In this document: in pieces, positions 26,361-61,349 of the stretch | Numbering within the stretch: the stretch's first letter is position 1 | How the letters are laid out: each line of letters starts with the position of its first letter | Source of the DNA: Brachypterus glaber | Taxonomy: Eukaryota > Arthropoda > Insecta > Coleoptera > Kateretidae | NCBI GenBank assembly: GCA_958510825.1 | Contig: OY294048.1 | Coordinates: 30,531,026 to 30,595,025 of the forward strand | Length of the DNA: 64,000 bases | Direction: 5' to 3' | The notes under the pieces: model-generated | Told to the model about the DNA's origin: nothing | The model's input: only the letters and a program-made list of their open reading frames with translations | Databases searched by the model: none | Translations under genes and position numbers: made by a program

Positions 26361-27566
26361 TGTCGTAATATGACTTTTCTTATAATTTAATTCCTTTGTT
26401 TAATATATTATTCCTCTGCCAAATCTTAATTTACCAGCTGGTGCCGCCTGAATGGTAGCACTTCGACAAGTGTTTTATGGCCTTAACCACTTGACACTAA
26501 TGACTGGTAACTTCAATCTGTTTAGATCTATCTACCATCGGGTAATAAATAAAAATCATATTAACCAATTTTTAGGGAGCTTTTGTTCGGTAACGAGAGT
26601 CAAAGTAAAAGTAAGATTTTGTAAGCTAAATAAGTTTTATTAAAATATAATTAAATTCCATAATTTCCATCTTTAGATCCTTCGATCCTTCGATCCTTCG
26701 ATCCTGCAGCTTTCCTTTCTAATTCCTAATCTAATTAACATAATTTTAGCCTAACTATAACCAATAGATTTCCAGCGTCATGACTCCAATATAGAAATTT
26801 CAACTATTTCAAATGTATAAAAAACCCTTCGCGACACAATAAAAGTTCCATTATTCCCATTTAATTTTAGTCCATGATTATTACAAAGTTTATTTAAGAT
26901 TTATTAAAAGTTTATTAAAAGTTCATTAAATTAAAATCACCCCGATAAAAAGTCTAAATTCGAATATTAAAGTTCCATTAAATTTCTATCCCGATAAAAA
27001 ATGCAAGTTATTAAATGTCCATAATTACACTTACATTTTTTAAACATTGGTTCACTCACTGAATTTATTATTTAAAATATATTAATGTTAGCGGAGCAAA
27101 CTATCGTGACCGTACTCGCGAAATATCTGTTTCTTTTCAACTAAAAATTTGAGCTTTTATACTCTATATTCGCATAAATATAAATTTAATTGCCAAAACC
27201 TTTTAGTTTAACTACACCGACAAACAAATCGAGAGCAATTCGTTATAATTCACGTCAACATTAATAACCAAACTGGACATTTCTTTGGCATTGATTTAAT
27301 GTTGAAAAGCATGAATCACAAAGAGATCACCGCATCTAGGTTAGTCAGCGCAGTAAATTAAAAAGCGCTCTCCTCAGTAGTGTCACAATAATCATTCCGC
27401 CATACGTGATTTATGAAGTACTTAACTATGCCGCTACTACAGGGTGTTATAAAAATTGTAATTCGGCACTTTCAACTAATTCTTACATTTTCGGAAACAA
27501 ATAATGTTTAGCAATCCATATAGAAAATAAACAGTTTTTAACTAAAATGGATTGCGTCACACCACA
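26361..27566 (-). repeat. Gypsy 3' LTR
   Basis: This 1206-bp copy equals 34419-35624 with an offset of 8058. It contains three GATCCTTC units near 26676-26705 and an ACAGGGTGTTATAA motif near 27439. The short ORF 26452-26643 lies wholly in the LTR and occurs in both copies; it is not treated as a gene. Confidence 0.95.
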
Positions 27567-28673
27567 TAGCTCCCCCCGAACAAAGAAGAAATCCTTTTTT
27601 TTTTTTAAACAAAGATTTCTTCAAAAAAAATGTTGATAAACATTTTTTCTGTTAGGTTGCACATGCATGAACCAAGTGAAACTAACTAAAACTAACAAAA
27701 TCAACTTACTCTAATTTTTAACTAACTTAACTTAACACCACACTAAACTTAAGTACATAGTTTCATTTGCAGTTCTATACCGCGTCATTTGAATGAAATT
27801 TGACGGCATCGTATAAAGTCTGTGTGCCTTCATAATATTCTGAAAGCTTTACTCACGCCCTTCCAGTGCGTAGGTGGTACCTTGATGTTGTCCCCTTCTT
27901 AGACTGCATGATCACCCCCTGTCTATGTTCTGGATATTATTTCATCCACCTCAGCATTCGGGAAGTCACGGAGGTCTCTGGATAAGACTCCTATCGCAGT
28001 TGACTGATGACTTTTAGTCTTACAGCTTGAGCTGACATTTCGTCTGCCAACACCTCCATTTACATGAATTACAGTATATCGATATTCGTTCGATATTGTG
28101 TCAAAACCATTTCGTTCGACAAAATTACACGGCGCGAACAACAAAGACCGCTAAAATGTTTATATTCTTTAGTCTTTTCGAACTTTTTTATTGTTCATTA
28201 ACTTAACCGGTAATACGTTTTAGTTTTTCAATACAACACTTTATTTAAAAGACACTTTTATTTATTTAGTTACTTCAAAATATTTTTCGTTAGTTTTATT
28301 TATTTATATTTATGTTTCCACTCAGCTTATTTTTATTTATTTTTGTATATATTTAGTGAAAAATTCTCATGACTCTTTTTATTGGTTTATTTATTTATAT
28401 ATAATAACTAGAAAGTGTTGTTAAACTGTTATCTTAACTCGTTACGTTCTTCTCAATTTTAGGGTTTGTTCACCTACTTAATATATGTTTATTTAATTTT
28501 CTCAAAACGCTCGGACTAATATCCCATTTGTTTTGGTTACTCGGCGCCTATATGTAAATAACCTATAGCGTATATATGGTATAATATAAATCTGTTTATA
28601 ATTTGAATTCTGTATACCTATTTGCTTTTAGTCATTTTTATTTTTCGGCTATGTCCTAAACTAATGTTTGTTA
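27567..28673 (-). other. Gypsy 3' non-coding region between pol and the 3' LTR
   Basis: 1.1 kb follows the pol stop codon. The only ORF of note is 28144-27923 (73 codons, minus). It has no transmembrane segment, furin-like site or env motif that I can see, so no env gene is supported. The region next to the LTR holds the purine tract. It may be a decayed third gene or a regulatory spacer. Confidence 0.6.
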
Positions 28674-31600
28674 TTATTTCGTTTTTTTAAAAATCCATGG
28701 TTCTTCTGGAACTGATCCTCTTGACCTTAGACTACGTCCAATTGGTCTTTCTTGCACACTGATTGGTTGGTCTCTATCAGCTGCTGGTTCCTGGTTTTCT
28801 ACTTCAACATCTCCTTCAACATCTCCTTCAACATCGTAAAAGGACACGTCTGAATCACTAACCTCCCCTAGTTGTTCGATATTACTCATATCCTCGTCAT
28901 CACTCTCCGAGGTTTCAGTTACGTTTGTTGAATTTTCTAAAATACTATTGTTTTCAGAATTTGCATCATTTTGATTTTCTAATGAGATTCTTGGGTTGAC
29001 CCGTGTAACATTATGTTTTTCTTGTAAAACTTGGACTGGTTCATCCAACAAATCGTTTTGATTTTCTTCTATTACAATGTCATCGTCCTCCCAATCTGAT
29101 TCATTTTCAATGCGGATTGTGGCTGGTTTTAACCGGTCCACATGTGTTAATTGGGTTCTTCCATCTTTAATATGTTTGATTTTATAAGTGACAGGGCCCT
29201 TAACCTTTATAACTTCGTAAGGACCTGACCATTTTCTATAAAACTTTCTTGCAATTTTATTTTTGTTTATTTGTGGAGTGTACAAATACACCTTGTCGCC
29301 TAACTTAAATGTTCTAGTCACTGCTTTTTGGTCTGCATACTTCTTTTGATTACTCGCACTTTTACTCAAATTTTCTCTAGCTTGAGCATGCGCTTTTTGT
29401 AATCTTAGGACCATTTCTGATGCATAATTCGAATCTACATCATATTTAATAGATTGCGGTTTTATTGTTAGGTGATATGGTAAAGTCATATCTCTACCAA
29501 AAAGTAAGTAAAACGGTGTCTGTTTTGTAGATTCACTCCGTATATTTCTATACGCACACATCACGTACGGTAACATCAGATCCCATTCACGGTCTTTCTC
29601 GCTAACAAAGTGTTTTAGCATTTGTTTTAGCGTCCCATTCAATTTTTCTACCAACCCGTTAGCCTGGGCATGATAAGGGGTGGTATAAAGTCTTGAAATA
29701 TTTAACAGTTCGCAAACATTTTTAAACAGTGCTGAGACAAACTGTGTACCATTGTCTGTGAGAAGTTGTGCTGGGGTTCCGTGCCTAAGAATAACATTTT
29801 CAACAAAGGCTCTAGCTACAGTAGCTGCAGTTATGTCTTTTAGCGGAATCGCTTCTGCATATCGGGTTGCATAATCAATACATGTCAAAATATATCTCTG
29901 TCCTGTCAATGTAACATTTAAAGGACCTGTAATGTCGATAGCTACCCTCCCAAATACTGCATTAGGCATAGCTACATTTTGCAAATGAGCTTTAGGTAAT
30001 CTTGAAGATTTTGATATTGCACATGAATAGCAGCTTTCGCAAAATGCTTTGATATCACTGTCCATTCCACGCCAATAAAAGTCATTTTTAACTATATCTT
30101 GCGTTTTTGTAATTCCATTATGACAGAATAATTTTGAGGCGTGACACATAACCATGATATCGTGTTGTATACATTTCGGTGCTACTAATACATCGGTTTT
30201 ATTATTATCGTTCCTTGTTTTATAACACAATCCATCGGAGCTCAAATAGTAATCTGTTTCAATATTTATATTATCTTTAATTGCTGCAATAAATCTATCT
30301 TCACTTTGCATTTTAAAAAGGGTCTGCCTAGACCATATTACGTCGATCATAGGACAAATCTCAAACTCTGGCGTGTTTTTGCTTATCTTTGCAACTAGGC
30401 TATCCAGTGGCGTCTCGATTTCTTCCGAACTTACATAATTATTGTCCTCAATATTTTCTGATTTGTTTTCGATATCTTCCGGCCATTTGCACCTGGATAA
30501 GGCATCTGCCACATTTTTTGATCCTTTTCTATAGACCACTTCAATATCGAATGACAGCAGAAACATGGCCCATCGTGCAAGACGAGATGAATATTCACCA
30601 CGGAATGAGATTAAATATTTTAATGGAGCATGATCAGTGACACAGGTGAACTGTCTCCCTGTCAACCATAATCTATATTTTTTTATTCCAAACACCAGTC
30701 CGAGGAGTTCTCTTTCTATAGTAGAATAATTGATTTCGCTTTTATTTAAGTTCCTGCTAGCGTAGCTTACAGGATGCTCTACGCCGTTATGTTCTTGAGC
30801 AAGGATTGCACTTATAGAAAACCCGCTACTGTCCGTTAAAAGGATAAAACGCTTTGACATATCAGCATGTTTTAAAATAGGTGGAGATATTAATGCTTCT
30901 TTTAACGTTTGAAACGCTTTTTCTTGTTTATCTGTCCAAATAAAAGGCTGATCTTTCTTGGTAAGTAGAATTAAGGGTTGTGCTATTAACGCAAACTTGT
31001 CTACAAAACGCCGGTAAAAGGAGCAGAACCCGATGAATGAACGTACCTCTTTCACTGTTTTCGGAGTTGGATAGTTTCTTAGAACTTTTGTTTTCTCATT
31101 ATCAACCATGCACCCAGCTGCAGATATCTTATGCCCTAAATAAGTGATTTCTTTTTGCATGAAATGACATTTGGATGGTTTGAATTTTAAATTTGCATCT
31201 CTGGCCAGTTTAAAAACGTTTTCTAATCTAGTCAAATGCTCATCAATATCAGAATTACTAAAAACAACTATGTCATCTAAATAAATTAGCATTTGTTTTT
31301 TATTAATTGATGAGAACACTGCTGCCAATCCACGGGAAAAGGTAGAACTAGAATTACGCAAACCCATCGGTAGACGCTTGAACTCATAATGATTATCAGG
31401 GGTTGAAAAAGCACTTATTTCTCTATCTCTAGGATCCAGTTCAATTTGGTAGTATCCACTTTGGAGATCCATAGTACTAAACAATTCCATCCCTGCTAGC
31501 TGTTCCAAGGATTCTTGTATATTTGGTAGTGGAAAATAATCAGTTTTGGTAACCTCATTTAACTTCCTATAATCAATGCATAATCTATATTCTGGCTTAC

Positions 31601-32357
31601 TTCCTGCGGCTGTGCGTTTTTCTACCAATATGCAGTTTGATGACCAAGGAGAAGAAGATTCTGTTATTATGTCATTGTCCAACAGATCTTTAATCTGTTC
31701 ATCTAATATTTTCTTCTTACTAAACGGTACCCTGTATGGTCGTTGACAAATTGGGTGTACATTTTCAGTAATAATTCTATGTTTAACTAAATTAGCAGAA
31801 GAAAGTTTCTGAGATGGGGCCTTAAATACATCTATGTATTTTTTTATTAATTTCTGTAATTTTTCTTCGCCGCCACTGGCGACATGGTCCAACTTCAATG
31901 ATTTTAAAATGCAACAAGTGTCTTCATTGAGAATAGATTTAACCGTCACGACGGGTGGTCTTAGGCTAGGCCTGTCTTCATCTACCTCGAAAGCTGTACC
32001 TATGACGTCACGTTTGTTGATTTTAAACGAACTATCTGCTGCATTTAAAATTCTTACTGGGACATATTTCGAGTTTTTACATAAAACTCTACCTACATTT
32101 AAACAATCTTGAAAATCCTGAGACTGTTCAATAATTAAACTTTTTGTATTTAACGTACGAACATTGTCGACAAATGCGTACGTAACCACTTCCGTTCTAG
32201 CAGGTATATTAATTGTATTCGCTATCCTAACAGGGACTCCCTGACAAAAATCGACAATCTGGGTAGAAATTCCGGATTTTCCTACCGTTTGATTATCTTT
32301 AGTCTGAGTTCCTTCGCTAGAACTGATATTTTCTTTACACGTGTTATTTTTCTTCAT
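28674..32357 (-). CDS. pol: Gypsy pol: reverse transcriptase, RNase H, integrase (1227 codons)
   Basis: It copies the element RNA to DNA and inserts it. After about 190 residues of linker come RT (about 195-375; D297 in FSTMDLQSGY and YLDD at 359-362) and RNase H (about 500-625; D509 in LLTDS, E550, D575 and the ADALSR end). The integrase follows with a zinc-binding HHCC part (H739, H746, CESC/CYSC 773-779) and catalytic D808, D868 (LLTDNGTQF) and E904 (GLVEKLNG). A GPY/F-type module (RKWSGPYEVI, about 1040) and an acidic tail, which includes a GDVE repeat, complete it. All expected catalytic residues are present. The first ATG overlaps the protease stop as ATGA. A slippery A AAA AAA ends one base into that ATG, so the product is probably made as a frameshift fusion and not from this ATG. 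Confidence 0.95.
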   Translation of the reverse strand: MKKNNTCKENISSSEGTQTKDNQTVGKSGISTQIVDFCQGVPVRIANTINIPARTEVVTYAFVDNVRTLNTKSLIIEQSQDFQDCLNVGRVLCKNSKYVPVRILNAADSSFKINKRDVIGTAFEVDEDRPSLRPPVVTVKSILNEDTCCILKSLKLDHVASGGEEKLQKLIKKYIDVFKAPSQKLSSANLVKHRIITENVHPICQRPYRVPFSKKKILDEQIKDLLDNDIITESSSPWSSNCILVEKRTAAGSKPEYRLCIDYRKLNEVTKTDYFPLPNIQESLEQLAGMELFSTMDLQSGYYQIELDPRDREISAFSTPDNHYEFKRLPMGLRNSSSTFSRGLAAVFSSINKKQMLIYLDDIVVFSNSDIDEHLTRLENVFKLARDANLKFKPSKCHFMQKEITYLGHKISAAGCMVDNEKTKVLRNYPTPKTVKEVRSFIGFCSFYRRFVDKFALIAQPLILLTKKDQPFIWTDKQEKAFQTLKEALISPPILKHADMSKRFILLTDSSGFSISAILAQEHNGVEHPVSYASRNLNKSEINYSTIERELLGLVFGIKKYRLWLTGRQFTCVTDHAPLKYLISFRGEYSSRLARWAMFLLSFDIEVVYRKGSKNVADALSRCKWPEDIENKSENIEDNNYVSSEEIETPLDSLVAKISKNTPEFEICPMIDVIWSRQTLFKMQSEDRFIAAIKDNINIETDYYLSSDGLCYKTRNDNNKTDVLVAPKCIQHDIMVMCHASKLFCHNGITKTQDIVKNDFYWRGMDSDIKAFCESCYSCAISKSSRLPKAHLQNVAMPNAVFGRVAIDITGPLNVTLTGQRYILTCIDYATRYAEAIPLKDITAATVARAFVENVILRHGTPAQLLTDNGTQFVSALFKNVCELLNISRLYTTPYHAQANGLVEKLNGTLKQMLKHFVSEKDREWDLMLPYVMCAYRNIRSESTKQTPFYLLFGRDMTLPYHLTIKPQSIKYDVDSNYASEMVLRLQKAHAQARENLSKSASNQKKYADQKAVTRTFKLGDKVYLYTPQINKNKIARKFYRKWSGPYEVIKVKGPVTYKIKHIKDGRTQLTHVDRLKPATIRIENESDWEDDDIVIEENQNDLLDEPVQVLQEKHNVTRVNPRISLENQNDANSENNSILENSTNVTETSESDDEDMSNIEQLGEVSDSDVSFYDVEGDVEGDVEVENQEPAADRDQPISVQERPIGRSLRSRGSVPEEPWIFKKTK

Positions 32358-33118
32358 TTTTTTCCTTCCTGCTTAATTTTCCCAATATTTTTAGCCTTTT
32401 TCCCTTGCTTTGTAACAAATTTCGAATTTTCAGAATTTGATCGATATTTATTTTCAGTACTAACGCCGACAACACTATGCGCATTCGTGTTCTCGTTAAC
32501 TTGAATATTTTCAAGAGACTTTCCCGAAATAATTTTAACCATTTGTTCTTTTAATTCTTGAATTGTTACTTGCAATTCTCTTATTTCCTTTTTTAAATCC
32601 ACCATCCCATTAATTTCATATATCATTTCTTTTTCTGGGTGTAATTGAAAAATATTATTTCCTATTGTAAGATTATTTGTTCCCCAGTCTATTGTCACTT
32701 TAAACTTTTGTAAAAAATCGACACCTAGTAATATAGGTGATTTTAAACCACTCACTTCGGATACAAAAAATTCGTGAGAAACTTTTTTGTTCCCTATGGT
32801 AATTTCCGCCGAAATTACGCCTTCGCAAGGAATATTGTTTCCTTGAACATCCTTTAATTCTATAAAACTATTATTAATCGTGAACCTTTTTGCAAACGCT
32901 GGCTTCACAATGGATATCACTGCGCCCGAGTCAATTAAACAGGGTAAAATTTCCCCATTTATATTTAATTTTATTATCGATTGAGGCTCTAATCCCGTAT
33001 ACTCGTGGCAGTGATAAATTTTTCCTTTTAATTTCTGAAAGCCCTTGTTTCGGCAGTACGCCTTGGTTCGGAGGGTACTGCTTGACCGTTTAAATCTTTT
33101 CTCATTCCAACCCTGCAT
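32354..33118 (-). CDS. pro: Gypsy protease ORF with C-terminal coiled coil (255 codons)
   Basis: A retropepsin-type aspartyl protease, which would cut the Gag-Pol precursor during particle assembly. The active-site motif is LIDSGAVISIV (D63), and the flap-distal ILLGVDFL is at 129-136. Residues about 172-197 show a heptad-like run of L, I and V (KKEIRELQVTIQELKEQM) that should form a short coiled coil; the tail is basic. The ORF lies in the -1 frame relative to gag and overlaps it by 91 nt. Within the overlap is T TTA AAC (33094-33088) in the correct phase for a -1 shift. The ATG at 33118 is therefore probably not the real start. A separate protease ORF is unusual for this superfamily. Confidence 0.9.
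   Translation of the reverse strand: MQGWNEKRFKRSSSTLRTKAYCRNKGFQKLKGKIYHCHEYTGLEPQSIIKLNINGEILPCLIDSGAVISIVKPAFAKRFTINNSFIELKDVQGNNIPCEGVISAEITIGNKKVSHEFFVSEVSGLKSPILLGVDFLQKFKVTIDWGTNNLTIGNNIFQLHPEKEMIYEINGMVDLKKEIRELQVTIQELKEQMVKIISGKSLENIQVNENTNAHSVVGVSTENKYRSNSENSKFVTKQGKKAKNIGKIKQEGKK
32357..32363 (-). promoter_or_regulatory. Predicted -1 ribosomal frameshift site A AAA AAA (protease to pol)
   Basis: The protease ORF ends GGA AAA AAA TGA on the minus strand. The seven A sit in the phase A AAA AAA directly before the stop, and the pol ORF continues in the -1 frame with ATG AAG as the first codons after the slip. Confidence 0.8.
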
Positions 33119-34179
33119 TGTCTTTTATTGTGACCTACTCTTCCACATAGGTCACAACTATAGTCCCTACAGTTTCGGGAGAAATGCCCTGGTTTACCAC
33201 AACGGAAACATACTATTTTCTTTGTTGGACAATCCCTTTGAAAATGTCCCACTTTTTGACAAGCAAAACATTTCATATTCTTTTTATAGTTACTATTATT
33301 TGGTGCGCGCCATCCCTGTACATTAGTCTGCCCATTATTCTTATATGGTGCGCGGCGTTCCTGATTATTATAACCATTATTTTGAAAATCATTTCTAAAG
33401 GGTGCGCGTCGTTCCTGATTATTTTGAAAATTATTCTTATATGGTGCGCGGCGCTCCTGATTATTATAACCATTATTTTGAAAATCATTTCTAAAGGGTG
33501 CTCTACGTTCTTGGCTATTGTGATCATTTACTGTTAACCGTTGATTTACCGAACGGCATTCTCTGTTTGAATTAGTCATGTTGTGTATCACCTCTTCGCG
33601 AGTAGCAATAATTACCGCGTCGGATAATTTTTCTGGGGCAGCCGAAAGAACGCGCTGCTTGATGGGCATAGAAAGTCCGGCCATAAATATTGCCAAGGTG
33701 TCCTGGTCTAACTTTCTCTGTAAAGAATCATCTAAAGGAGTAGTAATTGTTTGACTTGCTGCCAATTTTACTCTTACTAAAAAGTCTCTACATTTTTCCC
33801 CAACTCTTTGCTTACATGCTGTAAAGCTACTTAAAACTTCCGAATAGTATCTATGTGTCCGATACTGGTCGTGTAATAATTTTTTAAAATTTTGCCAAAC
33901 ATCCGCTCCTTTAATTTCAACACTAGATTGAACAAATCTTTTTGCCTGACCTATCATTTTTAATTTAGCGGTTGCTATCTGGGTTGACTCTGACCACTTA
34001 CAAAGTGTACCCATTTCTTCAATAAAATTCAAAAAATCATCCACGTTCCCCGTCCCGTCGAACTCTTTAATCGCGGCGATATTAGCTAGATTCGTTTGGG
34101 ATTCAATAAAATTGGGCGGCCACTCCACCTTGATGACTTGTTCGGTCGAGGTTGTAGCTGCAGGATTTTGTTCCGTCAT
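33028..34179 (-). CDS. gag: Gypsy Gag with three CCHC zinc knuckles (383 codons)
   Basis: The structural protein of the element particle, which binds and packages its RNA. The ATG at 34179 is the first in the ORF and lies 239 bp after the 5' LTR. The N-terminal 200 residues have the look of a retrotransposon Gag capsid (GTGNVDDFLNFIEEMG and a QNFKKLLHDQYR region). Residues about 222-300 are a repeat of five QERRAPF/Y-R/K-N units rich in Asn, Gln and Arg. Three CX2CX4HX4C knuckles follow at 304-317, 324-337 and 342-355. A basic tail ends the ORF and overlaps the protease ORF. No breaks are visible. Confidence 0.93.
   Translation of the reverse strand: MTEQNPAATTSTEQVIKVEWPPNFIESQTNLANIAAIKEFDGTGNVDDFLNFIEEMGTLCKWSESTQIATAKLKMIGQAKRFVQSSVEIKGADVWQNFKKLLHDQYRTHRYYSEVLSSFTACKQRVGEKCRDFLVRVKLAASQTITTPLDDSLQRKLDQDTLAIFMAGLSMPIKQRVLSAAPEKLSDAVIIATREEVIHNMTNSNRECRSVNQRLTVNDHNSQERRAPFRNDFQNNGYNNQERRAPYKNNFQNNQERRAPFRNDFQNNGYNNQERRAPYKNNGQTNVQGWRAPNNSNYKKNMKCFACQKVGHFQRDCPTKKIVCFRCGKPGHFSRNCRDYSCDLCGRVGHNKRQCRVGMRKDLNGQAVPSEPRRTAETRAFRN
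33088..33094 (-). promoter_or_regulatory. Predicted -1 ribosomal frameshift site T TTA AAC (gag to protease)
   Basis: Read on the minus strand, gag codons GAT TTA AAC GGT contain the heptamer T TTA AAC in the X XXY YYZ phase required for -1 slippage. It lies 24 nt after the protease ATG, inside the gag/protease overlap, and the protease ORF is in the -1 frame. I did not fold the downstream RNA. Confidence 0.8.
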
Positions 34180-34418
34180 TTTTACTTTTATTTAGCTACT
34201 TTTTCTTTGAATAATCGGAAAATAGCCGATGTATCACTCGTTACTAGAAGACAGAAAATCAATAAAACCAATCCTTGTTTCTCTTTCCAAAAAAAAAATC
34301 TTCCACTTTTTTTTTCAAAAAAAAAAATATATATATAAAATATATCGAGAAAAAAAATCTATAAAAATCTATAAATTACTACTTTCTGCCTCCCAACCCG
34401 TTAGTAACCTGACAGCAT
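34180..34418 (-). other. Gypsy 5' leader
   Basis: 239 bp lie between the 5' LTR and the gag ATG, with long T and A runs near 34290-34350. The bases directly after the LTR (ATGCTGTCAGGTTACT on the minus strand) do not begin with the usual TGG of a primer-binding site. Confidence 0.7.
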
Positions 34419-35624
34419 TGTCGTAATATGATTTTTCTTATAATTTAATTCCTTTGTTTAATATATTATTCCTCTGCCAAATCTTAATTTACCAGCTGGT
34501 GCCGCCTGAATGGTAGCACTTCGACAAGTGTTTTATGGCCTTAACCACTTGACACTAATGACTGGTAACTTCAATCTGTTTAGATCTATCTACCATCGGG
34601 TAATAAATAAAAATCATATTAACCAATTTTTAGGGAGCTTTTGTTCGGTAACGAGAGTCAAAGTAAAAGTAAGATTTTGTAAGCTAAATAAGTTTTATTA
34701 AAATATAATTAAATTCCATAATTTCCATCTTTAGATCCTTCGATCCTTCGATCCTTCGATCCTGCAGCTTTCCTTTCTAATTCCTAATCTAATTAACATA
34801 ATTTTAGCCTAACTATAACCAATAGATTTCCAGCGTCATGACTCCAATATAGAAATTTCAACTATTTCAAATGTATAAAAAACCCTTCGCGACACAATAA
34901 AAGTTCCATTATTCCCAGTTAATTTTAGTCCATGATTATTACAAAGTTTATTTAAGATTTATTAAAAGTTTATTAAAAGTTCATTAAATTAAAATCACCC
35001 CGATAAAAAGTCTAAATTCGAATATTAAAGTTCCATTAAATTTCTATCCCGATAAAAAATGCAAGTTATTAAATGTCCATAATTACACTTACATTTTTTA
35101 AACATTGGTTCACTCACTGAATTTATTATTTAAAATATATTAATGTTAGCGGAGCAAACTATCGTGACCGTACTCGCGAAATATCTGTTTCTTTTCAACT
35201 AAAAATTTGAGCTTTTATACTCTATATTCGCATAAATATAAATTTAATTGCCAAAACCTTTTAGTTTAACTACACCGACAAACAAATCGAGAGCAATTCG
35301 TTATAATTCACGTCAACATTAATAACCAAACTGGACATTTCTTTGGCATTGATTTAATGTTGAAAAGCATGAATCACAAAGAGATCACCGCATCTAGGTT
35401 AGTCAGCGCAGTAAATTAAAAAGCGCTCTCCTCAGTAGTGTCACAATAATCATTCCGCCATACGTGATTTATGAAGTACTTAACTATGCCGCTACTACAG
35501 GGTGTTATAAAAATTGTAATTCGGCACTTTCAACTAATTCTTACATTTTCGGAAACAAATAATGTTTAGCAATCCATATAGAAAATAAACAGTTTTTAAC
35601 TAAAATGGATTGCGTCACACCACA
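34419..35624 (-). repeat. Gypsy 5' LTR
   Basis: 1206 bp, nearly identical to the 3' LTR. In element sense it begins TGTGGTGTGACGC and ends CATATTACGACA. It should contain the promoter and polyadenylation signals. The ORF at 34510-34701 duplicates the one in the other LTR and is not a gene. Confidence 0.95.
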
Positions 35625-35628
35625 TAAG

Positions 35629-35705
35629 TAAAGAAATTAAATGAAATTATGTATAATAAAACCCAAATTAAAAATAAATACAAACACAGAAATGTGGTTG
35701 TAACA
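35629..35705 (-). repeat. BEL 3' LTR, proximal part
   Basis: These 77 bp match 43178-43254 of the intact LTR and complete the LTR split by the gypsy element. Confidence 0.95.
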
Positions 35706-35740
35706 TTACCGCCCACCAAAACACACAAAATTAGAGTGTT

Positions 35741-37054
35741 TTAACAACACATAGGTAATATACATAATTTTACTAAGGGCCTCTTTAGGACACCTTGAGC
35801 TGTACGGACATTTACTACTCGGATCACACCATCAGCACCTGGAAATAATTCTATTACACGACCTATCGACCAACGAAGAGGGGGCTGTAAATCGTTCTTT
35901 ATCAGCACCATAGAACCAAGTTCTATCGGTTTAGAGGGTTCATTCCATTTAACTCTTTGCTGTAAAGTACATAAATATTCGGAATGATACCTGGCCCAGT
36001 AGTCCTGATGCATACGTTGAATAAGCTGCCACCTATTTAGACGATTAAGAGGCAAGTTTTGTAGATCAGGCTCTGGCGGGGCAGAGAGTGAGTTCAGGGT
36101 AAGAAAATGTCCGGGAGTTAAGACCGATAAATCATTTGGGTCAGAGCTAACTGGACAAAGAGGTCTCGAGTTCAATAAGGCTTCTATTTGAACTAAGAAG
36201 GTTGAGAATTCCTCATATGTCAGTCGTTGTAAACCAACTACTCTATAAAAATGAGTTTTTACCGATTTAACACCAGATTCAAACAGACCACCAAAATGTG
36301 GGGCTGAAGGGGGATTAAATGACCACTTTATCGATTCAGTTTCAGTGGCATGCTGCATCAACTCATCTAATTGGCGCGCGGCACCAACAAAATTTGTACC
36401 TTGATCAGAGAAAATGTGATTACAGCGTCCACGTCTAGAAATGAAACGACGAAGAGCAGCCAAAAAGGACTCAGAAGAAAGTGAGGACACCAACTCTAAG
36501 TGTATAGCTTTTGTGGTCGAGCACACGAACACACAAATCCAAGCTTTGTAAGTTTTTGCACCACGTACTCGTCCCATGCTTATATTGAATGGACCACAAT
36601 AGTCCACGCCACAGCTTTGGAAAGCTTTTAACTGACTTATCCTAAAGCTCGGTAGGTCACCCATCCTAGGTTGGATAGTGTTGGGCTTAACCCTAAAGCA
36701 CTTGTGACACTTTGAAACAACAGATTTTATGGCCCGCTTGGCGGACAATATCCAAAACTGTTGATTCAATAAAAACTGTAAGGTTTGAATCCCAGGATGC
36801 ATATGCCTAACATGCATATCCTCGATAATGAGGTAAGTCAATCGATGAGTACGAGGTAATAATGCGGGATGTTTACTTTCAAACGGCAGATGTGCATTTT
36901 TTAGCCTACCGCCTACTCGTAAAACTCCTTGTGGGTCTATGAAAGGATTTAATTTACGTAAAGTTTTATTAACCGGCTTTTGTTGCTCGATACGTACAAT
37001 ATCTTCCTTAAAATATTGGTGTTGAACAATTTTAACCAAAGTTATTAAGGACAC
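35741..37054 (-). pseudogene. BEL pol, integrase part (frame cut off by an upstream stop)
   Basis: The integrase of a BEL/Pao element, which would insert the cDNA. The zinc-binding part is visible (H...H...CHKC, about residues 75-120). The catalytic triad is in VDYCGPF, SDQGTNF and GGLFE. A C-terminal module (VLIKNDLQPPLRWSIGRVIELFPG) is typical of BEL/Pao integrases. The marked first codon is a GTG, so it is not a natural start: the frame continues upstream without a break for 40 codons to the TAA at 37175-37177. This segment is therefore the downstream part of a single polyprotein in the same frame. As it stands it would be translated only by readthrough or reinitiation. Confidence 0.9.
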
Positions 37055-37174
37055 TTGTAAATCATTTGCAACTAAAGCAGTAGTAACCTTTTGATTAGGA
37101 TTACGTAAATTGAAACCAAAACGAAAAATATATGAGACAACACGTATTAGACGTGATAATCTAGAATATTTGTT

Positions 37175-40100
37175 TTATAGGGTATCAATAAATTGATCAG
37201 TCTCTATTAAAACTAGGGATATAATCTTGGCCTCATCTGGAGACGTAACGGGTGTAAAACTATCCGTATCAAGATCCAGGGAGGTAGACAAGAATTCTGG
37301 TCCCGCCCACCATTGGGTACACTGCATAAGCTCGCTGGGAAAAAGCCCACGTGAACCATGGTCAGCCACGTTGTCCGCAGACTTAACATGATACCAACAA
37401 TCTGGTGGTACCAAATCTTGGATGTGGCTAACGCGATTTGCGACGAATGTTTTCCAACGATGGGGCGGAGCCTTAATCCATGATAAGGCTACCATGGAAT
37501 CTGACCATGCATATGTTTTATGAAAAGTAATGCTGTTTTTATAAGTGTTGCGAACAAACTTTATTAAATTACTTAATAAAACAGCAGCGCACAATTCCAA
37601 GCGGGGTATTGATAATTTCTTTAAAGTAGCAACTTTTGACTTTGCACAGATTAAGGAAACTTCAAACTTTCCATCTGGCAGAGGTTTTCGAAAGAAAATT
37701 ATAGCACAATAGCCCTTCTCAGAACTGTCACAAAAGCCATGCAATTCTAAACCACGGGCGTTTTTTATATCAAGAAAACGGGAAATTTTTAAATCTGCTA
37801 ACATGTGCAATTCAGATTTAAATTGTAACCACTTTGTTACCACTTCATTGGGAAGTGGCTGGTCCCAATCACAACCTAGTGACCATAAATGCTGTATTAA
37901 ATGCTTGGCTACAAAGGTTATTGGACTGAGATATCCAAGTGGATCCCAAATACGCGCAATATCCAATAGGATAGAACGCTTAGTTGGTGTAGACTCTAAA
38001 GCCTTCACCCGAAAAGAGAAAAAATCGGTATGTGGAGTCCATTGAAGTCCCAAAATTTTAAGATATGAATCTTCTTCAGAATCAAATGATATATGCTGTC
38101 GATGATCGACAGGGATATCTTTCAATAAATTTGGAGAATTGCTCGCCCACTTTCTCAATTCAAACTTTCCTTTTTGTAAAAGTTCAGTTAGCTGAAGACA
38201 AAGCACCTGTGCTAGCTCTAGGTTGTCAGCCCCTGAGATAATGTCATCAACAAAGGTATCTTCTTCTAGAGCTTTTGATGCCATAGGAAAATCTTTACCC
38301 TCATCTGTTACTAACTGTTTAATAGTGCGTAATGCTAGAAAGGGAGAGAAAGTATTACCAAAAGCTACCGTTGTAAATCGGTATTCTTTTACTGGTTGTT
38401 GGGGATGAAATCTCCAAAGCAATCGTTGATAATTTCGGTGCTTCGGATCCATAAGAATTTGCCTAAACATTTGTTTTATGTCTGCCATTATAACAATAGT
38501 ATGAAGGCGAAATCTTAATAAAAGGGAAATTATATCAGTTTGTAATTTAGGTCCTGGACATAATAAATCATTAAGGGAGTAGCCCTCTGATGTTTTAGCA
38601 CTGCAATCAAAAACTATGCGTACCTGGGTAGTACTACTATCCGGCCTTAGTACCGCAAAGTGCGGAACCGTATAATGCGGTGCAGTGGCCTCACATGGAG
38701 GTGCTTCTTCCATGTGCCCAGAATCTAAATATTCCTGAATAATTTTAGAATATGATATTTTTACGGATTCATCTTGCAAGCATCGTTTTTCTAAAGAGAA
38801 AAAACGCTTAAGTGCGTTTGTGCGAGAATCACCCATAAACGTAGGTTCCATTTTTTTGAATGGTAGGGCAACCATGTAACGTCCATCGTTTGTTCGTGTA
38901 CATGATTCAGTATATTGTTGTTCACACCATTTTTCCTCAGGAGTTAATTTTTCCTGTTGAGGTACCTGCTCTAATTCCCAAAAGGACTTTAGATCAAAGG
39001 TTTCCATGGATGTGACAAGTGCAAAATTTGTCGGGGAGGGATAGGATATTTTCCCCATTAGTATATATCCGAAAACTGTCTCAATGGCTACCGGTTGACT
39101 CAGATCCCCTGCTACTTTATTGCTGAGCAAAATCTGAGCAAACACCTCCGCCCCCAGTAAAAGCTCCACGGCTTTTACTTTATTAAATTCGGGATCTGCT
39201 AAATTTAGCTGGCGTATGTGATGCCATTGGGTAGTATCGAGTGCGCATGCCGGCAACCGTTCAGGAAGATTCGGCAGCACAACTGCATCAATATTAAGAA
39301 TAGGATTCTTAGCTTGAGTGGGCTTTATTACGCATTGAGTAATGCCCTTGGATGTTACCGGAGAATTAGGATTAATGCCCGTTATGGTCTTATGAAAAGA
39401 CGAACGGTGTAATCCTAGCCGATTCAAACATCTTTCTGTTATAAATGAACAAGTAGAGCCATTATAAATTAAAGCACGTATTAATTGATAGTGCCCACGA
39501 CCATCCTTTACGTGTACCATAGCAGTAGCCAATAAAATTGGCGCTGGTACTGTCGTTATGGATGTAAAAACGTTAGGATCATTAGACTCGACGCTAGAGT
39601 CATTATTTCCTACGCAGTTTTGTCCCGATGTACCGGCCGTTTGGACCGATAAGGGAGGGGTTACGTTATTTTCACCAGAATGTGATAAATTTACTTTAAC
39701 TGCCCTGTTATTTGGTTTGTCAAAATGTAAAGTGGAATGATGTCGCTTTTTACATATTTTGCATAAATGAGTAGAATTGCAAAACTTAAAGTTGTGTGAA
39801 TGGCTAAGACAATTGACACATAACCTATGCTGTTTAGCAATTTCATATCTCTTTTTTGGAGCTTCTGATAAAAACGACCTACACTGAGAAACATGATGAT
39901 TTGACTTGCAAACAGGGCAAGATAAAATATCAGTATTTGTCACAAAAGAAGAATTATTATATGAATCTAACTTAACATGTTTTGATACTGGCTTTTGAAC
40001 ATTGTTGATTGGTGCTTTTTTAGAAGATAAAGCCTCAACAGTTTCTAAAGCCTTAGCATGTGCTGTTAAAAACAGTTTTAATTCGTCAAATGTGGGAAAA

Positions 40101-40912
40101 CCATTCTTTTTATTTTGTTCCTCAAACTTAGCACAAAGATTTTTTGGAATACGTTTGTACACCATATCTACAAGAATAAAGCTCCACTCGTTTGTTGGAA
40201 GACCCAAGGCCCCGAGTGCCGCTAAATTTTCGACAAGAGTATTCAGGAAAATAATCAAGGCTGATGATGTGTCAGAGATGTTTGGCAGTTGACATATTGC
40301 CTGCCAGTGCGTATTAGCCAATAATCGTTTATTGTCATACCTCTGACGCAGCTGATTATAAGCTACAGAGTAGTTACTTCCCGATAATTGAACACACTTA
40401 ATAATGCTAAGTGGTTCCGAAGTTAATAATAAATGTAAATGAGAAAATTTTTCAATGTCTGAGAGTTGGGGATTTGTATGTATAGCAGAATCATACAAAT
40501 CTATAAAAGTTTGCCAGTCTGGAAATTTTCCGCTAAAAGGTTTTAAATTCAACTTTTGAAGTTTGACATTTGAAGTCGTAGCATTTGAAGAACTTCCAAA
40601 TAATTGTACATAAATACCTTGGATCTGCCAAAACATTTCATCAATCACCGTAGCAGCTTCCCTTTCTTTAGCTATATCCGTTTTTCGGATAGCATCCGTA
40701 CGTCCAGGATCTGATATGACGAAAGCGAGTATGTCATCAGCCAGCTTATGCCATTGCTTATAAGTCACATCCAGCTGTTGATAACAAATTTTAAAATGTT
40801 GCTGTTTTGTGATATCTTTTTGAGCGGCCACTGCTGCCTTTTGAACTCGCTTTAGCCTATCATATTGCAACTGCCTACGGTTGTCCATAATACAATATTC
40901 GTTTAGATCCAT
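37175..40912 (-). pseudogene. BEL Gag-protease-RT-RNase H polyprotein, with stop and protease mutation (1245 codons)
   Basis: The main polyprotein of the BEL/Pao element. Gag occupies about residues 1-330 (KLNLKPFSGKFPDWQTFIDLY is a hallmark of BEL/Pao Gag). A cysteine/histidine cluster spans 332-394, and the retropepsin region is at about 465-600. RT has D811 (MADIKQMFRQ) and FVDD at 887-890. RNase H follows with GFCDSS, PRLELCAA, AWSDS, FVANRV and NVADHGSRG. Two defects are visible. The protease motif expected to read Asp-Ser-Gly reads Tyr-Asn-Gly (residues 483-485; codon 483 at 39466-39464), which should abolish activity. The ORF then stops at TAA 37177-37175, before the integrase in the same frame. 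The RT and RNase H motifs look intact. Confidence 0.9.
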
Positions 40913-41089
40913 GGCTTATAAAATTTATTTATTGAAAGGTACAAGAAAAAAATAAAAATTATAAAAAAAATATAAACTGAATAATTTTAGGAAAATTACA
41001 CAATTTTTTCTCAAATTTTATTTCTTAAATTGAATTTATTGTAGAAGAAAACCTCCAGATATAATGGCTAAAATATAACTTATACCTCA

Positions 41090-41440
41090 GTAATGAATCA
41101 CCCTGTAAATATTTTCAACAAAATTCAAAATTCCAAATTATAATCCAAACTATGAGTTACCCTGTATATTTGCACAGAGTTTTCCAAAAAACCAAATTCA
41201 AAAAATTACAATTTAATTTTTAAGTCACCCTGTATATATTCTGACAGAATATAAAAAAAAAACAAAAACAAAAACTCAAAAGTACAATTTAAGACCCTGT
41301 ATATATGGACTGGATACTCAAAAAGGCAAAATTCAAAATTACAATTAAGCTTTAGGTTACCCTGTATGCATATATTTGACAGAATATTAAAAAAATTCAG
41401 ATTATAATCTAAGTTCAATTCTCCTGTATGAAAATATTTG
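41090..41440 (-). repeat. Six-unit tandem array of about 65 bp in the BEL leader
   Basis: CCTGTA occurs at 41102, 41161, 41229, 41296, 41360 and 41423, a spacing of 59-68 bp. Most copies read ACCCTGTATATAT or similar, each followed by an A-rich stretch with AAATTCAAAA and ATTACAATT blocks. Confidence 0.85.
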
Positions 41441-42309
41441 AAATGGGCTAAATTTATTTTTAACCTATTCTTTGAAAATTACAATTTTTTATGTACCGAT
41501 AGTATTTCCAAAAAATAAAAAAGAAAATAAAATAAAAATTAAAATTATATTTTTAAGTGTTTTCTACTATTTTTTTAACCTGGTATACACTAAAGGTACA
41601 GCTCAAGATTTCCCACTTGCATAACCCTGTATACATTCGAAAAGTACAAGAAAAAATACCTAGATATCCAATATAAAAAAATAAGTTTTACAAAAGTTCC
41701 TAATTTTAAGAACTCCCTGTATAATAGTAAAACTAGAATTTGGACAAGGTATCTTATTTTTGCGCGCAAAAAATATATCAAATTAGAAGGAAAAAAAATC
41801 AAAATATAAAAGTAATTTTGTTTCCACCCTAATGTAACTTTACTAGCAATAGGTAAATTTTAAATCTATTACTACTAGATAGGTATTTTAATTATAATAT
41901 CTTGCTCGCAAATAAGTTCTATCGAATGTAATTAATTATATGGATAAATTTTAATTTATTTTTTCAAAGCACAGAAATATTTTTAAGAATCTTTCTACGC
42001 CCAAATAAATCACCAGTTTTAAAACAATAATTTTCAAAAGGCAAAGTTAAATAATATTTTTATTTTAACAATAAACTGTATTTCTGCAAAATAAAATAAT
42101 AATTGCGGTTTTGACTGTGTCCAAAGAAAAAGAAAAAAAACGCTTGGATACAGCTGATAATTTTTTGCCCTTTTTTTTATAGAGCACAAAGTTTACGATT
42201 TTATCGGTTTTTAATTTTTCAACCGAAAAATCCAAAATATATTTTTAAAGCGAATTACCCTATTTGAAAATAATTTTTATTCAAAATAAGATTTTATGCG
42301 AGATATTTT

Positions 42310-42446
42310 TGTTAATAAATAATCTATCTCCGAATGCAACACTCAAATATGATATTGTTATTTATAACGAATAATTTTAATGTTAATAAATAAGCTATCT
42401 TCGAATGCTAAATCCAAATATGATATTGTTATTTATAACAAATATG
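42310..42446 (-). repeat. 70-bp tandem duplication in the BEL leader
   Basis: TGTTAATAAATAATCTATCT and TGTTAATAAATAAGCTATCT start two successive units, both ending in ATGATATTGTTATTTATAAC. Confidence 0.85.
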
Positions 42447-42625
42447 TAATTTTACAACTGCAAAAGAAAGTTACCACATACACACTGTAAAATTAGCAAA
42501 ATCTAGTTAAATGAATTTAAAAGCTATGAAGCTATATTAAATAGTTATACTAGTGCCAAAATTCCGGTTCAAAACGGACCATGTTATAATGGTTCTGCTA
42601 GCTTAAATCCGGTTCGAAAGGGCCA

Positions 42626-43254
42626 TGTTGTATGACGTCGAAAGGTCCCATTCGGTGATATGGGATTGCCTCCGTAACATCGCCTTTATGATATTAATTA
42701 AGTGGACTGCGAATAGGTACTAATGATTGAAAAGAATATTAAAGACAAAACGACCGTTCCAATAATATATATGGTAATCCTACCTTAGTTACAGCATTCA
42801 GCACGACAGGTCATGACCGCCATTTCTTCACAGGAGACACCACATAATTGGAAACTGATGTACGCGAATTAAAGTTTGTTTTACCAGTGTAGGTATACAC
42901 TGCTAATTATTTAAATACATATGTGTATATGGAACTTATTTCTATAGTTTGCAGCCGTAAATATGGTAAATTCTAACGAATGCCCGCGGCTTGGTATATT
43001 CGTCAGCTGATTTGAGTATATTTTTATTGACACGCATCGAGCGTTCTCGAGAGTCAAATTGATACTGGTGCGGAAGGCAACCTACTCAAGCGCAGAAAAG
43101 CTAGGAGGTTGTCAGCGCGTTACTTACAAAAATACAATCAATTCAAAATAAAATATTATTTTTGAATTATAACTAAGTAAAGAAATTAAATGAAATTATG
43201 TATAATAAAACCCAAATTAAAAATAAATACAAACACAGAAATGTGGTTGTAACA
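42626..43254 (-). repeat. BEL 5' LTR, intact, 629 bp
   Basis: Reads TGTTGTATGACG...GGTTGTAACA on the plus strand; in element sense TGTTACAACC...CATACAACA. It includes the uninterrupted TAAG that serves as the empty site for the gypsy insertion. Confidence 0.95.
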
Positions 43255-46930: not shown

Positions 46931-47153
46931 TAGGCTCTCATACGCGTTAACGGGAAGTATAATAATCATAATGCATAATTCTTCTGGGCCCCAAGACCAT
47001 AAAATAAAATATTAGCAAGTAAATAAATAAGAGTTCTTTAAGCTATTTATTACAAAGGACAATCTTAAACTTGCTACCATTCAAAGTCTCCAGACTAGGA
47101 GAGGTATGAGTAGTTGTCTACATCTAGCAATAGATGGCGCACAAGTCCACATC

Positions 47154-47325
47154 AATCTAATGACTATATTGCTTTTGCGAATAAAGTCTAAAATAGTTTT
47201 CTTAATCAGCATGCAGAGTTGACTTGGTACTGAACAGGGCCAGCAGCCCGAAACTGTCTACCAATATCACTCTGTACGATGATTAAAAAATAGATTAATG
47301 GAATAATAAATTTATATTTATTACA
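47154..47325 (+). mobile_element. Hammerhead-bearing repeat, copy 1
   Basis: TCTAATGACTATATTGCTTT to GGAATAATAAATTTATAT matches 59764-59930 throughout. It lacks the left inverted arm found in copy 2. A (GTAAC) microsatellite follows near 47384-47404. Confidence 0.75.
47211..47277 (+). ncRNA. Degenerate hammerhead ribozyme copy
   Basis: Same fold as 59820-59892: outer stem TGCAGAGT/ACTCTGTA, inner stem TTGGTA/TACCAA, stem II GGGC/GCCC and GAAA are all kept. However, the core reads CTGAACA, with C at the position that is G in CUGANGA, and stem III is reduced to GAAACTGTC. It is probably inactive. Confidence 0.6.
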
Positions 47326-47549
47326 AAGTACCTCATTTTTGAATATTTTTAATATAAATAATTTCCAGAATTTAATGTATTTTGTAACGTAACGTAACGT
47401 AACGTTGAGCAGCCCAACTGCTAAAATTACGCATTTGTAGTGGGGATAATTAAAGTGTATTGTTTCCTGAAATATGCTTGCGAGTCAGTCAAAAGTATAG
47501 CGTTAAAATGAAAAAAAAAATTCTTAAATTATATTAAAAATTATTTATA

Positions 47550-58014: not shown

Positions 58015-59727
58015 TGACGTATGAAACTAATATATTCTAAAAAAAAGGGTAATGAGAAAATTTTCTCATAGGTTATTTTTTGTATAATTCACACCTAATT
58101 AAATACCAATTAAAGCCCCATAGTTATTTTGAAAATATTCCTTTATTATCCAAAAACTCTTTTTTGTTCCATAAATGTCCAATATTATATCCTCAAAAAC
58201 AAATAATATCCTTTAAATGATTTTCTATTCAAAAAAGGGGCGGGTGCGACCTTTAATTATCTTTTAAAAATTTTTTTTTTAGAAAAATTTAAATTATTTT
58301 AAATTTTTCACAAGAATGCAAATAAAAAAACTTGACCAATTGAAGATTTTAATAATAATTTTATTTTAAAGGTCCATAGGTCACTTATTAAAAACTACCA
58401 AGACTGGAAGAGGGTGTTGTCAACAAAAAAAAAATCATTTGTAGCCAACCGTGATTATCCAATGATTTATCCAATGATCTTAAGTATCTCTTTAGCTTTT
58501 TACAAATCTGGGTGGGGATTTTTAAGAGAAACACCCTGTAATACTGGGTCTGTATAAATATCTAAATATCTCATTTTTGTCTATAAAAATACATGTACTG
58601 AGTTGGATATATTTCCTGTACAAAATACATTAAATATTTATCAGAATTCAATTCGAAGAAGTTACAATCATTCATGCTTCTACGACATCACAATACAAAT
58701 CGATGTTTTATGTATGAATGAATTTTGTATTTAAATATCGTCGAGTTATTTTCTCAATCTAGCATCTCCAAAAAAATTAATTTTCGGTTCTTAGCACTAA
58801 TAAATTTTGTAAATGTAACTTTTTTCTAAGCTATTTATTGGATAAAACCTTGTATGGCACTCATGGGTAAACCGATATTGCCCTCTCGAAAATTAACCTG
58901 CTAGGTTGACGCCTCAGTTAATTTTTTCATGGGCAATATCTTACTTTACTCACTAGTACCATAAATAAGTATTAATCGATTGGCCATATTCAAAAACCCT
59001 AAGGTACAAAATATCAGATTTTTAAAATTATTCGTTCTCCATAAACTTTTAATAGACCACTTCCGTGAATAACCCTGTATAGATATGTTTCCATATTAGA
59101 TTGTGCGGTTTTTGGCACAAACCTTACATTTAACTATATTTAAATTACATGCCGCGAAACATGTTTATAAATTGCGATATACAAATCGAATAACCTCAAC
59201 TACCAGAAAGAGTTATCGACGAATTCGTCTCAACTTCCTGCAACTGGAACTTTGCTGCTGCAAATCTGCAAACGCATCCTAAAGGGAAATGAATATTTTA
59301 TAGATATGTTAATAGGAAAATTTAATTTACACAGTCATATTATTATGTACAGATTTTAAGTAGACAGTCAATCGAGAAAAAACGTGTTTTTCAAGAAATG
59401 ATTTGTATTAAAAAATTTAATAATAGTGTAAATAAAAGGACAGATATAGAAGACTTAAATATAGCATATTTTCCGCTTATTTCAAAAATAAAAAGTAAAC
59501 TCTAGTTTTCATAAAAAAAAAAATAATAATAATAATAGGATATTTTGGTTTCTTTACAAGTCTAATTTTTAGTTTAAACCACAAAAAAAATCCCCCCCCC
59601 CGTACCTGTATCTGTCAACAATCCGAAATTTCCAGTATACGTTTGTATAGCACTGGTACACGACTTGAAATTTCTTATCTACATGTTTGTTTATTTTCTT
59701 GTATTTCGAATACCAATTATGTATTAT
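58015..59727. other. Non-coding sequence
   Basis: No gene recognised. An imperfect hairpin (GATATTGCCC...GGGCAATATC with GTTAATTTT inside) lies at 58873-58949. ACACCCTGTA-type motifs near 58534 and 59068 may be isolated transposon ends. A C-run near 59592 precedes the hammerhead repeat. Confidence 0.4.
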
Positions 59728-59930
59728 ATTTATTATTCCATCAATCTATTTTCTAATCATCGTATCTAATGGCTATATTCCTTTTGCGAGTAAAGTCTAA
59801 AAACGTTTTCTTAATCAGCGTGCAGAGTTGACTCTTGGTACTGAAGAGGGCCAGCAGCCCGAAACTGTCAGTCTACCAATATCACTCTGTACGATGATTA
59901 GAAAATAGATTGATGGAATAATAAATTAAT
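59728..59930 (+). mobile_element. Hammerhead-bearing repeat, copy 2, with perfect 37-bp inverted arms
   Basis: ATTTATTATTCCATCAATCT and the following 17 bases (59728-59764) are the exact complement of 59890-59926. Between them lie 125 bp that match copy 1 at 47154-47325 and contain the ribozyme. Penelope-like elements are known to carry hammerhead ribozymes in their terminal repeats and to have inverted flanks, so a Penelope remnant is a reasonable guess. No protein part is present. Confidence 0.8.
59820..59892 (+). ncRNA. Type I hammerhead ribozyme motif, complete core
   Basis: Hammerhead ribozymes cleave their own RNA after the H of a UH site. In order: outer stem I strand GTGCAGAGT (59820-59828), internal loop TGACTC, inner stem I TTGGTA (59835-59840), core CTGAAGA (59841-59847, matches CUGANGA). 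Then stem II GGGC-CAGCA-GCCC (59848-59860), GAAA (59861-59864), stem III CT-GTC-AG (59865-59871), and TC with predicted cleavage after C59873. Finally TACCAA (59874-59879), internal loop TATC, and outer stem I ACTCTGTAC (59884-59892) with one G-U pair. Every conserved core base is present. The internal loops in stem I could make the tertiary contact with loop II. Not folded by program. Confidence 0.85.
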
Positions 59931-60057
59931 ATTTTTTTAATTTTGTTTAAAATTAAAAATTTCTGTCCTTATGTATTATATATTTATTATTTCAATCCTT
60001 AATTCTTATATTTTAACGAAGAAAACGTAACTTTTAAGCTTTCACGGCCATTAAGAT

Positions 60058-60153
60058 ATAAAGAACTTTCACTTTCGGGTTTAGACCGTGTTAATGGATG
60101 TGAAAGTGAAAATCCATTAACACGGTCTAAACCCGAAAGTGAAAGTTCTTTAT
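60058..60153. repeat. Perfect 42-bp hairpin
   Basis: The arms 60058-60099 and 60112-60153 are exact complements (AAGAACTTTCACTTTCGGGT and TTAGACCGTGTTAATGGAT within the left arm) with a 12-nt loop. GAAAACGTAACTT / AAAACGTAACTT lie on both sides as a direct repeat. Confidence 0.93.
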
Positions 60154-60484
60154 AAAACGTAACTTACTGTAAGTACCATATTTTTACCTTTTTATTGCTT
60201 ATACTGATGATAATGCCACTTTAATATAAATATTTGTTCTTATACGAGGTTTTATTAAATTAAACCGTATTTTAAATGTTTTTATTTCTATGTTTATATT
60301 ATAATGCATAGTTTAATATAATTAATCAATCCCTTTTTTGTCTGCAAAACAATTTTAAACATTTTTTTTATTACATATAAAAAAAGAATCATATTTTATT
60401 ATTTTATTAACCAATTTTTAAACATATTGTTTTCTTTCTGGTTCTTTGAATTGTTAAAAAGTTATAACATAATTGTTACATTTC

Positions 60485-60530
60485 TTGTAGTGTGACTTTT
60501 GAAGAAGTTGGAATAAAGCCAACGAAACGT
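60485..60530 (+). ncRNA. Hammerhead-like stem II relic
   Basis: TTGAAGA, stem GTTGG/CCAAC, then GAAA and CGTC occur in the order of a hammerhead. However, the first core base is T instead of C, there is no room for stem III, and no stem I is evident. Probably a relic or a chance likeness. Confidence 0.35.
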
Positions 60531-60544
60531 CGGCAGTTTTAGTA

Positions 60545-61349
60545 AAAAAACGTTTTTTAATATAAATAACCCTAATCCAACCATCTACTATCTTATATTA
60601 TTATGATTACATCATCTGCTAACATATTGCTGAATTTTGCTACCAGTATGCTGCACCAACAGCAAAACGTTGAATAATAATGATAGATAAAATCGGACAC
60701 AAAAAAAAAAGTTTTTAATTAAAATTACTATTAACCAATTATTTTTTAAAGTATTTTTGGGAGCTGAAAACAAATTTGAAAATAAACAATCTCGCTGACC
60801 CCTAAAGAACCTCGCTCCCTTCTTATGTAAAAGTAGTTTCAGTCAGATTTGGCTCAATTTTGGATATGTTATAGTTTTTAACATTCTGGTCAAAAGATTA
60901 TAAGGGTACAACTCCCATAAAAATATATTTTACTACATAGCTTAACAATTGCACTCAGAACCGAGATTATGTTCAATACCATAACGGAACTAGACAATAC
61001 AATATATTATTAATAATTTATTAGATATCACAGGTAATGTAGTAGTAATACAACATTAGTACTAAATATTTACTTAAATAATACTGTTATATTAGAATAA
61101 TTTACTAATGTTACAGTATTATTTACTAATGTTACAGTATTATTACTAATGTTGTGTTATTAAATAACACATGGCATGTAATATCCCGATAACATATTGC
61201 ATCGTCTAGCTCCGTTATCGTATTAAACACAATAACGGTCTTTAAGTGTACAGCAACAAATGTGAATAATATGAATAGGTATTAACAAGAAAGCCAAAAT
61301 TTTAAAGATAATAATCTTTAATGCATAATTACAATTATACATTATACAA
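60545..61349. other. Non-coding sequence with a short tandem repeat
   Basis: No gene. ACTAATGTTACAGTATTATT-type units repeat about three times at 61088-61152. Confidence 0.5.

Follow-up and report, generated by a model that had tools for sequence, protein, structure and literature searches.

We have analyzed a window of 64 kb (64,000 nucleotides, 30.6% G+C) of the genome of the beetle Brachypterus glaber. Its long open reading frames (ORFs) belong to BEL/Pao and Gypsy retrotransposons, as indicated by a domain scan, and protein searches with them gave distant matches, the best at 42 and 46% identity. The relatives that could be named were mainly from arthropods (moths, butterflies, a mosquito, Lygus, Tribolium, Photinus, a pseudoscorpion and a spider), and others were from Hydra, a nematode, a pearl oyster and a Flavobacterium bin; for one of the retrotransposon ORFs they come from the best 120 of 1691 matches. 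Two LTR retrotransposons are nested at 25809-43254, where a Gypsy element (repeats of 1208 bp at 26361-27568 and 34419-35626, 99.8% identical) is apparently inserted inside one LTR of a BEL/Pao element (25809-26361 plus 35625-35705 match 42626-43254 at 99.6-100%). Both insertions look recent, since the LTRs are nearly identical.

Close to the end of the same window we found a short repeat that carries a type I hammerhead ribozyme motif. When positions 59700-59960 were compared by BLAST with the whole window, a second copy appeared 12.6 kb away, in the same orientation and with 90% identity over 174 columns. We refer to the two as copy 59 and copy 47 (Table 1). Five other matches, A+T-rich, of 22-38 columns and 82-91% identity, were excluded as copies, and there were no tandem copies of the repeat in the 64 kb.

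Table 1. Coordinates of the hammerhead repeat, its parts and its flanks in the 64-kb window
Feature	Position	Strand	Remark
Dispersed repeat with hammerhead (copy 59), 174 bp, 35.6% GC	59764..59937	+	90.2% identity to 47155-47322
Second copy of the repeat (copy 47)	47155..47322	+	BLAST match to copy 59
Inverted copy of the repeat's 3' end, head-to-head, 5' edge of copy 59	59722..59764	-	97.7% over 43 columns
3' arm of the inverted repeat	59890..59931	+	
Possible target-site duplication of copy 59, left, TTATGTATTATAT	59717..59729	+	weak
Possible target-site duplication of copy 59, right, TTATGTATTATAT	59969..59981	+	weak
Possible target-site duplication of copy 47, left, TATTTATTACAAAG	47044..47057	+	weak
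Possible target-site duplication of copy 47, right, TATTTATTACAAAG	47315..47328	+	weak; overlaps last 8 aligned bases
Type I hammerhead motif, extent as originally noted	59820..59892	+	73-mer; in copy 59
Stem I outer helix, 5' strand	59819..59828	+	10 bp with 59884-59893
Stem I internal loop, 5' side, TGACTC	59829..59834	+	
Stem I inner helix, 5' strand, TTGGTA	59835..59840	+	
Core CTGAAGA (C3 to A9)	59841..59847	+	
Stem II GGGC/GCCC, loop CAGCA	59848..59860	+	
Core GAA (G12 to A14)	59861..59863	+	
Stem III, 3 bp including A15.1-U16.1, loop GTC	59864..59872	+	
C17, predicted cleavage 3' of this base	59873..59873	+	by position in the motif
Stem I inner helix, 3' strand, TACCAA	59874..59879	+	
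Stem I internal loop, 3' side, TATC	59880..59883	+	
Stem I outer helix, 3' strand	59884..59893	+	

The first-pass annotation had described a complete type I hammerhead in copy 59, and its letters and positions were all verified. Copy 59 has the invariant core (CUGANGA ... GAA, the A15.1-U16.1 pair and H17), and its three helices come in hammerhead order with both ends leaving through stem I. The core and the inner helix and internal loop of stem I were as described there; stem II is GGGC/GCCC with the loop CAGCA, and stem III consists of the pairs A59864-T59872, C59865-G59871 and T59866-A59870. The outer helix of stem I (GTGCAGAGT/ACTCTGTAC), on the other hand, had been given as 9 bp and is actually one of 10 bp, the tenth pair being C59819-G59893. 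Beyond it there is one mismatch and then 12 further pairs (fold of 59805-59906), so the motif had been correctly located but its ends at 59820 and 59892 were drawn too narrow. The annotation had also overlooked copy 47, the inverted repeat and the competing fold that are described below. Both the internal loop of stem I and loop II are present in copy 59 and, judging from the letters, a contact between the two is possible.

Over the aligned part (59764-59931), copy 47 differs from copy 59 at 10 of the 162 sites compared. Inside the hammerhead 2 of 67 sites were substituted, versus 8 of 95 outside, not significantly fewer (Fisher p = 0.20). The first of these two changes, G59820 to A, costs an outer pair of stem I, and the second, G59846 to C, affects core position G8, where copy 47 departs from the invariant core. 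Besides, copy 47 lacks 2 nt in the internal loop of stem I and a further 4 nt in stem III, its helix III being thereby reduced to the A15.1-U16.1 pair. The rest of the pairing is retained, both in stem II and, minus the outer pair mentioned above, in the two helices of stem I. In the hammerhead of a Penelope-like element of Anolis the replacement of G8 by C alone abolished cleavage, as reported in PMC11167929, and we therefore predict that the ribozyme of copy 47 is inactive. Copy 59 seems to be the less damaged of the two. Side by side, the pair allows helix III to be compared in the presence and absence of the extra 4 nt.

Folding of the RNA had been proposed as a check on the motif, and in it the hammerhead is not the minimum-energy fold of copy 59. 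Given this result and a stem III of only 3 bp with a 3-nt loop, the annotation had put self-cleavage after C59873 too firmly. For the 73-mer the hammerhead has an energy of -20.2 kcal/mol and the best fold -28.3 (a gap of 8.1), and over 59805-59906 the competing fold is ahead by 6.2 kcal/mol when ensembles are compared. The 73-mer was more stable than 200 out of 200 shuffles (z -3.8), the stable fold being a non-hammerhead one. In this best fold the core is closed, because ACUGA (59840-59844) is paired with UCAGU (59868-59872) of the stem III region. Of the prefixes sampled, all those that reach 59872 or beyond had the same pairing in their best structure, so it precedes the synthesis of the 3' strand of stem I. 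As a control, a phage type III hammerhead analyzed with the same program did fold best as a hammerhead. Copy 47 folds best into the stem I and stem II layout of a hammerhead, without stem III and with a broken core.

The size of the energy gap, the early competing pairing, the behavior of the phage control and the C at G8 in the sister copy all argue for copy 59 being a decayed relic, once active, that would have lost cleavage as the letters of stem III pair with the core. We consider this a serious candidate, although at somewhat less than even odds. The core of copy 59 is intact, and amphibian hammerheads with a weak helix III are described as cleaving better as dimers (PMC7229834). Moreover, the energy models omit loop-loop and other tertiary contacts and magnesium, so the folding result lowers, and does not exclude, the activity of copy 59. 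A relic would also fit the retroelement origin discussed below, from which it differs only regarding present activity.

Covariance models, suggested as a further check, did not detect the hammerhead above threshold, as no Rfam family reached its gathering score anywhere in the window. This is one of the two results that, taken together, the annotation had named as refuting it, the other being a lack of cleavage in magnesium. The sole Rfam hammerhead model that matched copy 59 at E <= 10 was RAGATH-1-hammerhead (RF03152), which aligned core and stems at 59812-59878 with 21.3 bits versus a cut-off of 56.3. With the 73-mer alone its score was 13.4 bits, and it was not listed in the relaxed search of 59500-60800 (1301 bases). 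The relaxed Rfam search gave no hammerhead match for copy 47. As a yardstick, the phage type III hammerhead obtained 38.3 bits versus the cut-off of 48.5 of Hammerhead_3. Since this one is also under its cut-off, failing the Rfam threshold is weak evidence; a hammerhead motif can escape such cut-offs even when its core is complete.

At the 5' edge of copy 59 lies part of the 3' end of the repeat itself, in inverted orientation. Positions 59728-59764 and 59890-59926 are complementary at 37 out of 37 nucleotides, a match that extends to 43 columns with one gap, and the two arms enclose a centre of 125 nt. No remnant of the left arm was found in copy 47: when the 97 bp preceding it were compared with the arm, 1669 of 2000 shuffles scored equally well, and a decayed left arm was therefore rejected. 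A young age of the insertion, which the perfect arms might suggest, was not supported (p = 0.09). Exact direct repeats flank both copies, of 13 bp in copy 59 and 14 bp in copy 47. They are weak candidates for target-site duplications, since random placements in the window match or better them (42/1500 for TTATGTATTATAT and 58/1500 for TATTTATTACAAAG); in a local control for copy 59, 11 of 1500 placements did as well. The repeats of copy 59 would include 31-39 bp past the shared 3' end that are absent from copy 47, and those of copy 47 would include 97 bp before the shared 5' end that are absent from copy 59.

Perfect arms of 37 nt around a 125-nt centre, with possible direct repeats at the flanks, would also suit a miniature DNA transposon (MITE). 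The 42-43-bp inverted arms would then be its terminal inverted repeats, and the hammerhead would have arisen by chance or be carried along as a passenger. We find this improbable, since copy 47 shows no sign of the left arm and the possible direct repeats are unequal, 13 versus 14 bp. DNA transposons usually generate target duplications of fixed length.

The reading that we prefer, with a probability of about 0.68, is that the 174-bp repeat is a short non-autonomous retroelement, either retrozyme-like or derived from a Penelope-like element, the RNA of which would be trimmed by the hammerhead and likely recopied by the reverse transcriptase of a partner. It is supported by the complete core with its three stems, by the second copy that at 90% identity keeps stems I and II except for one pair, and by the inverted arm of copy 59, perfect over 37 nt. 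The hammerhead would trim the element RNA at C59873/U59874, and the trimmed molecule would likely be copied back to DNA by the partner's enzyme; we infer a role of the ribozyme in the processing of the element's RNA. Neither copy is large enough to hold a reverse transcriptase or GIY-YIG gene. No partner enzyme gene was found beside the repeat with a domain scan that covered 8 ORFs of the window, all of them away from 59-60 kb (where the longest ORF has 85 amino acids from stop to stop), and none of these 8 had a GIY-YIG domain. A caveat to the retroelement reading is the lack of tandem copies in the window, retrozymes being usually tandem. The weak direct repeats, the lack of relatives in the viral and prokaryotic collections searched, the non-significant deficit of substitutions inside the hammerhead and the competing fold also speak against it.

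Among the known hammerhead elements, the non-LTR retrozymes are described as animal repeats of 150-450 bp, with less than 50% GC and a type I hammerhead, insects being included and corals, mussels and the axolotl appearing among the metazoan hosts (PMC7229834). With its 174 bp, 35.6% GC and type I hammerhead our repeat is similar to them in these features of the published description. Unlike the metazoan retrozymes described there, its copies are not tandem in the window, its helix III is weak and it is known from DNA alone. The same source presents a proposal, on circumstantial grounds, that small hammerhead retroelements use the Penelope machinery.

The Penelope elements of Adineta vaga (PMC3846280) are described as often having an inverted pLTR, mostly head-to-head, which the authors interpreted as self-priming; in one case it was shortened and located at the 5' end. 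Some insertions are reported with target-site duplications of 8-10 bp and some without. Copy 59 (one of our two copies) has a similar head-to-head inverted partial copy at its 5' edge, and the arm may have arisen during an insertion of the Penelope type. Penelope-like elements are also reported to have minimal hammerheads with helix III nearly absent (PMC7761336, PMC6155905), and copy 47, where helix III is almost absent, is like the minimal type I hammerheads described for them (PMC11167929, PMC7761336, PMC3846280). The differences from these descriptions are that there is no space for a reverse transcriptase or GIY-YIG gene, that copy 59 has a short helix III and that stem I is long and bipartite. 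According to the account of the Anolis element (PMC11167929), its hammerhead required the element's protein in order to cleave, and mutants with a dead hammerhead were unaffected in insertion in vitro. Even in close models the hammerhead may or may not be needed for mobility.

There is a further insect example, the pDo500 satellite of Dolichopoda cave crickets, with a unit of ~500 bp that makes up about 5% of one genome (PMC2837043). By its description it is similar to our repeat in being an insect repeat hammerhead with potentially active and inactive copies together, and it differs in being a satellite, versus two dispersed copies in 64 kb. Overall, the type I hammerhead motif is real, and the small dispersed repeat around it likely belongs to the published kind of animal hammerhead retroelements. 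We do not file it as a retrozyme proper, because tandem copies were not seen, or as a Penelope element, because there is no enzyme gene, and its ribozyme likely works like the hammerheads of both. The proposed movement of such elements by the Penelope machinery would gain support from a short hammerhead repeat that bears the scar of a Penelope-type insertion. A bolder version, that the repeat is a new family uniting Penelope-style insertion (the head-to-head arm and a relative lacking helix III) with a retrozyme-style hammerhead (the long bipartite stem I and its possible loop contact), and that the 4 nt of copy 59 serve both as helix III and as an off switch (the same letters pair with the core), appears doubtful to us.

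The number of simultaneous matches had been taken in the first-pass annotation as unlikely by chance, and here the data agree with it. A descriptor scan of both strands of the window matched a single locus, the motif at 59820-59892. With thresholds chosen once the motif was already known (at least 6 for stem I, 4 for stem II and 3 for stem III), only one of 7117 shuffles of the window that preserved its dinucleotides gave an equal motif, and a looser descriptor (at least 5, 3 and 1) gave 130 loci over the 7117 shuffles. Independently, an outer helix of at least 9 bp appeared in 238 of 20000 letter-shuffled flanks, and the preservation of the stems in copy 47 points in the same direction. A random fit to the hammerhead pattern within A+T-rich repeat DNA is thus very improbable, even considering the post hoc thresholds, the many windows presumably screened at the first stage and the Rfam cut-off that no family reached.

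We have also searched for relatives of the repeat, and none were found in viral contigs or in prokaryote genomes and phage records. The pattern scans detect exact matches only and the collections are viral or prokaryotic, so this absence says little. Their one match in viral contigs was unrelated, the phage type III hammerhead used above (38.3 bits), located at 12234-12291 of an IMG/VR contig.

Some minor features of the window are worth describing. At 60499-60531 the sequence TTGAAGAAGTTGGAATAAAGCCAACGAAACGTC looks like a minimal hammerhead without helix III in which T replaces C3 and stem II is preceded by an additional A; the pattern had no match in viral contigs. We take it to be possibly a decayed Penelope remnant. 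At 60057-60154 there is a perfect inverted repeat of 43 bp with a 12-nt loop, by its appearance a palindromic mobile element or a young hairpin, which many miRNA-precursor models of Rfam matched, none at its cut-off. Finally, overlapping direct repeats with pairwise identities of 77-90% extend over 1263-2715 and probably form a minisatellite-like array.
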